From assembly GCF_015169395.1 (NCBI RefSeq), contig NZ_CP063458.1, forward strand, positions 6,758,001 to 6,822,000: a stretch of 64,000 nt of DNA. Direction: 5' to 3'. The stretch is from Humisphaera borealis. Its GTDB lineage: Bacteria > Planctomycetota > Phycisphaerae > Tepidisphaerales > Tepidisphaeraceae. The notes under the pieces were generated by a model. That model saw only the letters and a program-made list of their open reading frames with translations. It made no database searches and was not told the DNA's origin. Position numbers and translations under genes: made by a program. How positions within the stretch are numbered: position 1 is the stretch's first letter; every line of letters begins with the position of its first letter. Below are positions 6,167-9,842 of the stretch, one piece after another.

Positions 6167-6469
6167 ATGTTCTTCGTCTGGGATGACTGGAACACCGCCC
6201 ATATCGGCAAGCATCAGGTCGAGCCGTTTGAAGCGGAAGACGTGATCCGTCGCGCCGCCCGGCCTTATCCAAAAGGCATGGGCAATGGTAAGTTTCTCGT
6301 CCGCGGGCGAACCCGTGGTGGCCGTCGGTTGAACGTGATCTTCGTGTTCCGACCGCCGGAATCGATCGACGCAGATCTGCTGTCGCCGGAAGAACTGCTG
6401 GCGTTGGAGCAAGGCGAGAACGCAGCCTATGTCATTCATGCCCGCGACTTGCGGTCGGGCGAGTCCTAA
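6167..6469 (+). CDS. BrnT-like toxin (RelE-fold ribonuclease candidate)
   Basis: A 100-residue protein with the BrnT/DUF4258-like opening FVWDDWNTAHIGKHQVEPFEAEDV, followed by a basic strand region (KFLVRGRTRGGRRLNVIFVF). BrnT proteins are RelE-like RNases that inhibit translation and are neutralised by the RHH antitoxin BrnA. The toxin-first order, 12-bp gap and small basic product fit a type II pair. The ribosome site AGGA is well spaced. An unusually long acidic tail (SPEELLALEQGENAAYVI) may reflect a divergent subfamily. Activity is inferred from family and context only. Confidence 0.65.
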   Translation: MFFVWDDWNTAHIGKHQVEPFEAEDVIRRAARPYPKGMGNGKFLVRGRTRGGRRLNVIFVFRPPESIDADLLSPEELLALEQGENAAYVIHARDLRSGES

Positions 6470-6481
6470 CCTCCTTGTGAT

Positions 6482-6799
6482 ATGGGAAAAAAGCAGCCCC
6501 CTAAACCCTACTGGGAGATGAACGCCGCCGAGCTGGCCGAGGCGACGAAGGAGCTCGACCGCCCGATCCCGGCGTCGAAACTTCGGTCGTTGACCAAAAC
6601 CGAGAAGGCGCAGTTCGAAAAGGCCAGGAAGTCACCGGCGCGATCGGTGTTCGTTCTTCGCGATGCCGAAGGCGTCACGCTGCTACGGCTTGACCCTGCT
6701 GTCCTCAAGAGCGCGACGAAGTACGCCGCGGATCACCAGATGTCATTGTCGGATGTGATCAATCGAAGCCTCAAAGGCATGCTCGCGATGGTCGGCTGA
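6482..6799 (+). CDS. BrnA/CopG-like ribbon-helix-helix antitoxin
   Basis: A 105-residue protein immediately downstream of the BrnT-like gene. The N-terminal 50 residues are charged and probably the toxin-wrapping part. The C-terminal part has a beta strand (VTLLRLDPAVLKSATKYAADH) followed by SLSDVINRSLKGML, typical of RHH/CopG DNA-binding antitoxins, which usually repress their own promoter. No clear Shine-Dalgarno site is visible, consistent with translation coupled to the toxin gene. The ABC permease gene starts only 6 bp after its stop. Confidence 0.6.
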   Translation: MGKKQPPKPYWEMNAAELAEATKELDRPIPASKLRSLTKTEKAQFEKARKSPARSVFVLRDAEGVTLLRLDPAVLKSATKYAADHQMSLSDVINRSLKGMLAMVG

Positions 6800-6805
6800 T
6801 TCCGC

Positions 6806-8509
6806 ATGTACAAACTCCACCTCATCCTCAAATACCTCCGCCGCCGGCGCATCGCGTGGGTATCGCTCGTCGCCGTCACGCTCTGCACGGCGATGGTGAT
6901 CGTCGTCATCTCCGTCATGGGCGGCTGGCTGCGGATGTTCGAGACTTCGGCCCGTGGCATGACGGGTGACGTCATCGTCAAGGCCGACGGGCTGGGCGGG
7001 TTCCCGTATTACCCGGAGATGGTTGAGAAGATCGAAAAGCTGCCCTTCGCGCAGGCCGCCGTGCCGCAGATCACTACCTACGGGCTGGTGAACATCGGCT
7101 TTGCCGACCAGGGGAAGAAGACCGTCGGCGTGCAGGTGTTTGGAATTCAGATCGATCGTATCGGCCTGGTCAACAGCTTTCCGCAGAGCCTTTACCAGCA
7201 GCACAGTTCCTACACCGCGCACGGCCAGACCCCGCCGGCAAAGAAGACATTTGACCTGCGGACCGACTATTCCGCCCAGTCGGGACGGCTTCCCGAGGGG
7301 CTGTCCGACCCGCTGCAGAAGCTGCTCGATACGTTTCCGTTCGGGGAATCGCTGTCGCGCCGATACTTCGAGAGCGTGCCGCATCCGTTGGGCGACGGGA
7401 AAGACGTCAACCTGCGTCGCATCTTCTATACGCCGAGAATGTGGTCGCTCGCGGTCGGCGGCCGCATGACGACCGCCGAGCAGGATGCGCTCAACGCGCT
7501 GTCGTCGGCCAAGGCGTGGCGTGAGACGGTGCGCGAGTTGGCCCGCGAATCGAACTACCCCGGCCTGATCGGCGGCGCCCGCCTGCTGGAGGTCCGCAAG
7601 AACCGCGAAGGCGAGCTCGTCGGCCGCGACGCCTGGAAGTACCGCGAACTCTGGGCAAAGCTGACGGTGTTTGGCGTCGGCGCCAAGGGTGACGTCGGCG
7701 TGGACCGCGCCGAGCGGACGTATTGGATAATCGACGACAGCCGCACGGGCATGTGGCAATACGATAACAACGCGGTGTACGTGCCGTTCGAGCAGTTGCA
7801 GGCCGATCTGGGAATGAACTCGGTCGAGGTGGAGGACCGCCGCAGCGGCGAGAAGTACCAGACGCCGGCGCGGGCGTCGGAGATCAACGTCCGCCTGAAG
7901 CCGGGAACGGACGTCGTCGCCGCCCGAGCGGAGATCGCCAAGGTTGTCGCGGCGGTGGTCGATTCGCACATGAACGACCCGTACGCGAAGAACTACAACG
8001 TCTACATCCCGAAGGTGGAAACCTGGCGGGAGGCGTCGCGGACGTACCTCGACCAGATCGAGCGGGAGAAGGTGCTGGTCACGCTGCTGTTCGGCGTCAT
8101 CAGCCTGGTGGCGGTGTTCCTGATCTTCTGCATCTTCTACATGATCGTTGCGGAGAAGACGAAGGACATCGGCATCATCAAGAGCGTCGGCGCCACCAAC
8201 GGCGGCGTGGCCGGCATCTTCCTCGGCTATGGTCTGGCGATCGGCATTGTCGGTGCGGGGCTGGGGCTGCTGCTGAGCTATCTCATTGTCCACAATATCA
8301 ACGAGATTCACGACTGGCTCGGCAGCACGTTCCGCCTGGTGGTGTACAACCCGGAGGTGTATGCCTTCGACACCATCCCCAACACGATGGACCCGGCGAC
8401 GGTGGGCGTGATCCTGTCGATCGCGGTGCTGTCGGCGGTGTGCGGTTCGCTGATCCCCGCGATCGTCGCGGCACGGATGCAGCCGGTGGAAGCATTGCGT
8501 TGGGAGTGA
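6806..8509 (+). CDS. LolC/FtsX-type ABC transporter permease
   Basis: A 567-residue permease. One N-terminal membrane helix (WVSLVAVTLCTAMVIVVISVMG) is followed by a large periplasmic MacB-PCD-like domain (residues about 45-420). Three C-terminal helices form the FtsX domain, starting VLVTLLFGVISLVAVFLIFC, with the conserved KDIGIIKSVGATNGGVAGIFL coupling segment and the ending ARMQPVEALRWE. This layout is that of LolC/LolE permeases that extract lipoproteins from the inner membrane. The ATPase gene lies 337 bp downstream. The close spacing to the toxin-antitoxin pair suggests cotranscription. Confidence 0.85.
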   Translation: MYKLHLILKYLRRRRIAWVSLVAVTLCTAMVIVVISVMGGWLRMFETSARGMTGDVIVKADGLGGFPYYPEMVEKIEKLPFAQAAVPQITTYGLVNIGFADQGKKTVGVQVFGIQIDRIGLVNSFPQSLYQQHSSYTAHGQTPPAKKTFDLRTDYSAQSGRLPEGLSDPLQKLLDTFPFGESLSRRYFESVPHPLGDGKDVNLRRIFYTPRMWSLAVGGRMTTAEQDALNALSSAKAWRETVRELARESNYPGLIGGARLLEVRKNREGELVGRDAWKYRELWAKLTVFGVGAKGDVGVDRAERTYWIIDDSRTGMWQYDNNAVYVPFEQLQADLGMNSVEVEDRRSGEKYQTPARASEINVRLKPGTDVVAARAEIAKVVAAVVDSHMNDPYAKNYNVYIPKVETWREASRTYLDQIEREKVLVTLLFGVISLVAVFLIFCIFYMIVAEKTKDIGIIKSVGATNGGVAGIFLGYGLAIGIVGAGLGLLLSYLIVHNINEIHDWLGSTFRLVVYNPEVYAFDTIPNTMDPATVGVILSIAVLSAVCGSLIPAIVAARMQPVEALRWE

Positions 8510-8569: not shown

Positions 8570-8832
8570 GGCCCCGGAGGGGCCGGCGACGCTAGCCACG
8601 GGTGGAGCAACAGCGGCAAAGCCGCGTTGCGCAACCCGTGGTAGCCATCCATAACGAACTCTGCCCCAGAGGGGCAGACGAATTGTGACCAAGGCGAGGC
8701 CGTCTCGATGGACCACGCTTAGTCCGCCCCTACCGGGGCGGAATTGTTGATCCGATCGACCACGGGTTCCCCTCTGCCGGCCAGCCGGCCTCGCTCCACC
8801 CGTGGCAAGCAGCGTCGGCCCCTCCGGGGCCA
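8570..8832. repeat. Long palindromic repeat, GCCCCGGAGGGGC family
   Basis: The outer arms of about 39 bp (8570-8608 and 8793-8832) are reverse complements with a few mismatches, and several shorter GC-rich hairpins (GCCCCAGAGGGGC, CCCCTACCGGGG) lie inside. It fills the 337-bp gap between the ABC permease and ATPase genes and holds no gene. It could attenuate or process the transcript between the two subunits. Confidence 0.8.
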
Positions 8833-8846
8833 AGATCAGAAGATTC

Positions 8847-9842
8847 ATGCACCAAGCCGCGACCATCTCCGAATCCACCAAGTCCCGCGCCGGCGGGCCG
8901 ATCGTGCGCGCCAGCGCCGTCTCCAAATCGTTCAAGATGGGCGACTCGGTCGTGCAGGTGCTGCAGGACGTGAACCTGTCGATCGCGACCGGCGAGTTCA
9001 TCGCGATCGAAGGCCGCAGCGGATCGGGCAAGAGCACGCTGTTGCACATTATGGGCGCCCTCGATTCGCCCACCAAAGGCGGCGTATTCTTCGAAGGCCA
9101 CGAGTACACCCGCGTGTCGCCGGAGAATGCCAGGCGCGGCGTCGTCGGCGTGCTGACGGGCAAGTGGTTCGTCTGGATTGCGATCGGGCTGATGGTGACG
9201 CCGGTGTTCTTCCTGCTCGGCCACCTGGCGATGACGGCGAAGAAGGACATTCCGCCGACGGAGACCACGGCGTGGTCGAACATCGCGATCGGCAATCTCG
9301 CTGTCGGGTTGCTTCTACTCGTTCCCGTCGCAGCAGCCTGGCTGATCCGCACGATCCGCGCCCAAAAGGACGACACTGTCTCGGCCCGCATCCGCAACCG
9401 CGAGTTCGGCTTTGTCTTCCAGTTCTACCACCTCCTGCCGGAGCTGAACGTCGTCGAGAACACGATGCTCGGCCAGATGGTGCGGTTCTCGGTGTTCAAC
9501 TATTTCGGCCAGCGCCGGGCCCTGCGCGAGCGGGCGATCGAAGTGCTCACGCAGCTCGGCATGGCTCACCGCCTGACGCACCGTCCGAACCAGCTTTCCG
9601 GCGGCGAACGGCAGCGTGTCGCGATCGCCCGGGCGCTGATGAACAAGCCGCGCGTGTTGTTCGCCGACGAGCCCACCGGCAATCTCGACGCCGAGACCGG
9701 CCGACAGATCATGGACCTGCTCGAGAAACTGCACCGCGACGAGAATCAGACGATCGTGATGGTCACCCACGACCGCACGCTGGCGAGGGAAGCCGATCGC
9801 GTGCTCGTCCTGAAGGCGGGGAAGCTCTCGAAGGCAGAGTGA
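8847..9842 (+). CDS. LolD-like ABC ATPase with a two-helix membrane insertion
   Basis: A 331-residue ATPase with all NBD motifs: Walker [10 protein letters not shown] (56-64), Q-loop [11 protein letters not shown] (Q192), signature LSGGERQ (250-256), Walker B VLFADEP (270-276) and H-loop H308. LolD proteins are normally about 230 residues. The excess is one block, about residues 96-179 (9132-9383), between Walker A and the Q-loop, containing two hydrophobic helices, [20 protein letters not shown] and [20 protein letters not shown], joined by a polar loop. The flanks are continuous in frame and match ordinary LolD on both sides. ATG 8847 is chosen over an upstream start inside the palindrome. 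Partner permease at 6806-8509. Confidence 0.85.

Follow-up and report, generated by a model that had tools for sequence, protein, structure and literature searches.

ABC ATPase subunits are generally regarded as soluble motors that stay attached to a permease through contacts, for instance with its coupling helices. One gene in the 64,000-nucleotide stretch of Humisphaera borealis DNA analysed here (the window) encodes an ATPase resembling LolD of the Lol envelope pathway, which is essential in E. coli, and raises the question of why such a motor should carry two hydrophobic helices inside its nucleotide-binding domain (NBD).

The open reading frame runs without a break across the extra segment, from ATG 8847 to 9842, and the product contains the complete set of ABC motifs; on both points the preliminary description was right, and Walker A, Q192, LSGGERQR, Walker B and H308 are all located (Table 1). 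The product matches the Pfam model ABC_tran with an E-value of 3.5e-33, the match being split into two stretches. Its best NCBIfam model is TIGR02211 (LolD), an equivalog model with a curated cut-off of 307.75 bits, and this is also the best family for an insert-free orthologue from the window's family and for other proteins with a hairpin at this site. All of them score below the cut-off (239.9 bits for the window protein, 266.4 for the insert-free orthologue and 235-239 for the other hairpin proteins). Because neither the window protein nor the insert-free orthologue reaches the cut-off, LolD-like is the safe name.

Table 1 Features of the permease and ATPase genes (positions in the window)
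Feature	Position	Strand	Remarks
LolC/E (LolF-type) permease, presumed partner	6806..8509	+	one helix, periplasmic domain, three helices
Possible alternative in-frame GTG start of the ATPase gene	8802	+	
LolD-like ABC ATPase with inserted hairpin	8847..9842	+	331 aa; open frame from ATG 8847
Walker A, residues 56-64	9012..9038	+	
Insert region, residues 85-176, replacing E. coli LolD Q71-S78	9099..9374	+	net 84 extra residues, from the offset against E. coli LolD; missing in sister genomes
Hydrophobic helix 1, residues 107-125	9165..9221	+	KD 2.12; inside predicted helix 92-132
Hydrophobic helix 2, residues 146-164	9282..9338	+	KD 2.30; inside predicted helix 140-186, continuing into the side helix
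Counterpart of E. coli LolD side helix S78-Q87, residues 176-185	9372..9401	+	R183 = E. coli R85; alignment to 7v8l_D
Q-loop glutamine Q192	9420..9422	+	
ABC signature LSGGERQR, residues 250-257	9594..9617	+	
Walker B and D-loop, residues 269-282	9651..9692	+	
H-loop histidine H308	9768..9770	+	

The ATPase gene follows the permease gene on the same strand, with 337 bases between them. The permease matches FtsX (E 8.3e-14) and MacB_PCD (E 4.3e-6), its best family is TIGR02212 (lolCE; 156.8 bits, below the cut-off of 362.45), and it is the sole match at E<=1e-20 when the genome is searched for LolC/E-like permeases. The order of permease then ATPase is typical of lolF-lolD operons (PMC11784454), and this gene order, together with the single LolC/E-type permease, would place the pair among the LolFD transporters. 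The genome also encodes LolA (PF03548, 37.1 bits against a cut-off of 23.6; G000:C1:2916935-2917450).

The extent of the insert is given by the residue numbering relative to E. coli LolD. The offset before the insert is 14 (G84 = G70), by a hand count on the E. coli sequence, and 98 after it (residue 177 aligns with residue 79 in 7v8l_D), so the window protein has 84 extra residues. The preliminary description had placed a block of about 84 residues at 9132-9383; its size holds, and its position is shifted slightly upstream, to about 9099-9374. Between the end of Walker A and the Q strand the window protein has 122 residues, whereas 75 members of a phylum-wide set of 84 LolDs have 38. The two strong hydrophobic helices described earlier are recovered as two Kyte-Doolittle (KD) windows of 19 residues (2.12 and 2.30), separated by about 20 residues and bordered on each cytoplasmic side by charged residues. 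None of 5000 shuffled versions of the insert gives two windows at or above 2.1. Judged by these segments, the protein would not be a soluble subunit free of membrane helices, as a LolD is expected to be.

An assembly or sequencing artefact is hardly credible as the source of this segment, as the genome is a complete single contig of 7.19 Mb and the coding composition runs through the insert, whose GC content at the three codon positions (0.60/0.46/0.87) is like that of the flanking coding parts. Independent genomes, including G018 on a contig of 211 kb, also possess a hairpin at the same site. Other ABC ATPases of the same genome match both sides of the insert, without a comparable gap where the two parts are seen adjacent. 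We confirm that the insert, with its two probable membrane-spanning helices, is real.

In ATP-bound E. coli LolD, the side helix S78-Q87 contacts the coupling helices of LolC and LolE through R85 and S78 (PMC11671585). Alignment with E. coli LolD shows that the insert takes the place of the loop immediately before this side helix. The insert thus adjoins the element that touches the coupling helices, and the hairpin therefore emerges from the NBD on the side that faces the membrane domain. Structure prediction from the single sequence was poor (pLDDT 49), and an alignment of five sequences was used instead with AlphaFold2. The resulting model has an NBD with pLDDT mostly about 90 and a hairpin of two long helices; the first spans residues 92-132, and the second (140-186) extends into the side helix. 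With a pLDDT of only 53-69 for the hairpin, the model does not define how it is tilted or packed. The core of the model superposes on LolD 9rlc_D with a Z-score of 29.6 and an rmsd of 1.7 Å over 225 residues (43% identity), a match that covers the core and carries no information on the hairpin. The LolD fold is thus predicted to be kept normal despite the insert.

Relatives of the window protein were surveyed for the same feature. The preliminary description had regarded absence of the insert from all close relatives as evidence against it, and the outcome is mixed: no homologue is found in its own genome or in 60 relatives when the insert by itself is the query, so the sequence itself is absent from all 60, and other membrane hairpins are present at the same site in several of them. 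Among the orthologous loci of the window's family, which were gathered by a permease search, most ATPases have the ordinary short loop, including insert-free orthologues such as those of G024 and G016 with 35-38 residues from Walker A to the Q strand. Hairpins occupy the same site in four genera (G000, the window's own genome, G002, G018 and G025), the three other inserts adding about 116 residues in G002, about 105 in G025 and about 78 in G018. These inserts are unrelated to each other in sequence. G001 (same genus, 65% complete) yields no match for either the permease or the insert, and G023 (genus of G002, 60% complete) none for the permease. Presence of the hairpin shows no pattern with the length of the periplasmic domain of the permease, which is long without a hairpin in G016 and G011 and short with one in G025. 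The open frames of the family's permease orthologues span about 460 to 630 residues, and residues about 157-248 of the window permease, in its periplasmic part, are unaligned in most of them.

A scan of the genome collection with the whole protein returned only six distant NBDs. Further cases came from a survey of the class and from a scan of family f19, in which a consensus-like C-terminal half of LolD, not a real protein, served as bait only. In f19, a homologous hairpin is found at the same site in G271, G357, G304 and G445, representing at least three genera. In G129 (family f20), the membrane helices are located one loop upstream, after the Walker A helix and ahead of the strand that follows it; close relatives of this gene (L121; 82-85% identity in the C-terminal half) are without such helices. 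Altogether, hairpins are present in at least eight of 397 genomes of the class, a lower bound, as the genomes checked for inserts were chosen partly by weak full-length scores. In the other classes of the phylum, none of 78 resolved LolDs has one. Eight of nine inserts have an even number of hydrophobic segments (two or four), the exception being G129 with three windows, the third of which may be interfacial. An even number fits a membrane hairpin, because both halves of the NBD must stay in the cytoplasm. In addition, the flank after the last hydrophobic helix of the hairpin inserts is rich in K/R.

The helices could instead lie on the membrane surface or fold back onto the NBD, never spanning the bilayer. 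Shorter amphipathic or single hydrophobic helices do occur at the same site in G010 (an amphipathic insert of 29 residues), G139 and G256, which would agree with such an arrangement. However, the window protein has two windows of spanning length above KD 2.1 and charged residues on both cytoplasmic sides, and we consider this arrangement very improbable.

The distribution of the hairpins points to more than one origin. A tree of 102 ATPase cores, built without the insert columns, requires seven changes for the nine hairpin rows, at least three of them forced by strongly supported branches. When the permease is added to the tree of the window's family, every hairpin genome stands beside insert-free ones, two of them under strong support. 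Grouping the four hairpins of this family is rejected (p-AU 5.8e-5), as is grouping three of them (0.002); a single origin of the four is thus rejected. The count of changes alone cannot separate gain from loss, and separate gains are favoured over loss because the insert sequences are unrelated. In family f19, by contrast, constraining the three genera to a single clade gives a better fit than leaving the tree free, and their inserts share the flanks R.LQ before the helices and RL.L.D..E.RRI after them, with an identity of 34-38% in the inserts versus 64-70% in the core. From these sequence comparisons, the f19 hairpin appears to have been inherited and kept hydrophobic.

The main rival explanation is neutral: the loop tolerates insertions, some of which happen to be hydrophobic and slip harmlessly into the nearby membrane, with no function gained. 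Within the class, inserts at these loops do vary widely in length and kind; those of family f3 are hydrophilic and those of f4 zinc-ribbon-like. Since the same loops also accept hydrophilic sequence in other families, the site is generally tolerant. (In f4, the LolD-like proteins L089 of G184 and L101 of G394 have a CxxC...CxxC insert that comes after the Walker A helix and before the strand following it.) Moreover, presence of the hairpin is patchy within genera, and the statistics of drift are weak. In simulated drift, both helices persist in 5-10% of runs if one lineage takes all the change, and halving the divergence raises this to 36-73%, which lends only modest support to selection on hydrophobicity. 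The neutral explanation does not readily account for inheritance across at least three f19 genera with conserved flanks, for the even segment number in nearly all inserts, or for a loop length that is otherwise almost fixed throughout the phylum. We regard it as unlikely, though deserving serious weight.

The reading we favour, with moderate confidence, is a LolFD-type transporter whose ATPase has gained a helical membrane hairpin before the side helix, clamping the ATPase to the permease. The NBD would work normally, and the hairpin would insert into the inner membrane next to the permease, close to the coupling helix that joins permease membrane helices 2 and 3. Each ATPase subunit would then be held on the permease twice, through the groove for the coupling helix and through the pair of helices that it carries itself. 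Since the model shows hairpin helix 2 and the side helix as one continuous helix, helix 2 could also stiffen or amplify the passing of NBD closure to the permease. We infer membrane insertion, permease contact and the effect on coupling for a segment whose position, hydrophobicity and recurrence are directly observed. The preliminary description had likewise proposed a membrane hairpin linked to this permease, a proposal that is partly supported, being favoured by the site, by the two helices of the predicted structure and by the recurrence of hairpins there in other genera. The work of the transporter does not depend on the hairpin, since most relatives have a LolD that lacks one.

Instead of packing on the permease, the hairpin might recruit a different membrane protein, such as an enzyme that processes lipoproteins. 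Hairpin sequences that are unrelated between gains would be expected with differing partners. However, the site sits at the permease contact, and in neighbourhoods compared unsystematically no further gene beside the pair is tied to the hairpin; docking of this kind is improbable.

Tentatively, and with less than an even chance, several lineages of the class may have repeatedly turned the Lol ATPase into an integral membrane protein through independent hairpins in the side-helix loop, with two or four helices per subunit. Such a transporter would contain at least 12 helices, and helix 2 together with the side helix would form a rigid lever that alters coupling.

Several known systems are related in part. 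In MacB, the NBD is tied to the permease chain itself. This type VII ABC transporter shares a homologous NBD and permease type with the window pair, and its NBD is covalently tied to membrane helices; the tie goes to the permease chain, whereas the helices of the window protein sit inside the NBD. LolD of the LolFD and LolCDE transporters (E. coli LolD; PDB 9rlc, 7v8l) has the same NBD fold and catalytic motifs, and the same order of permease then ATPase (PMC11784454), but is cytosolic and lacks the 84 additional residues, with their two hydrophobic helices, that precede the side helix in the window protein. The insert-free orthologues of G024 and G016 share the permease neighbour and NBD motifs and differ in their short loop without a hairpin. 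The gate helix of Wzt/TarH is also a helical extension within an NBD loop, lying close to the membrane domain at the interface of water and lipid (PMC6379404); it is located between strands 1 and 2 and is a single cytosolic helix that does not span the membrane. The hairpin is a recurrent feature in a known kind of transporter. It indicates that a membrane segment can be accommodated in this region of the NBD, and its repeated gain beside the coupling-helix contact provides a natural experiment on motor-channel attachment and force transmission. A search of literature accessible without journal subscription found neither LolD with membrane inserts nor Lol in Phycisphaerae, which is weak evidence of novelty.

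Two minor features flank the permease gene. Between lysS and the permease (6167-6799) are two small genes, possibly a toxin-antitoxin pair, with a weak match to BrnT toxin (E 0.03) and a DUF6364-like partner. Between the permease and ATPase genes (8570-8831) lies an imperfect palindrome of about 260 bases, whose 73-base arms are 75% complementary; it is a MITE-like repeat with similar copies at about seven other sites in the genome (66-74% identity).
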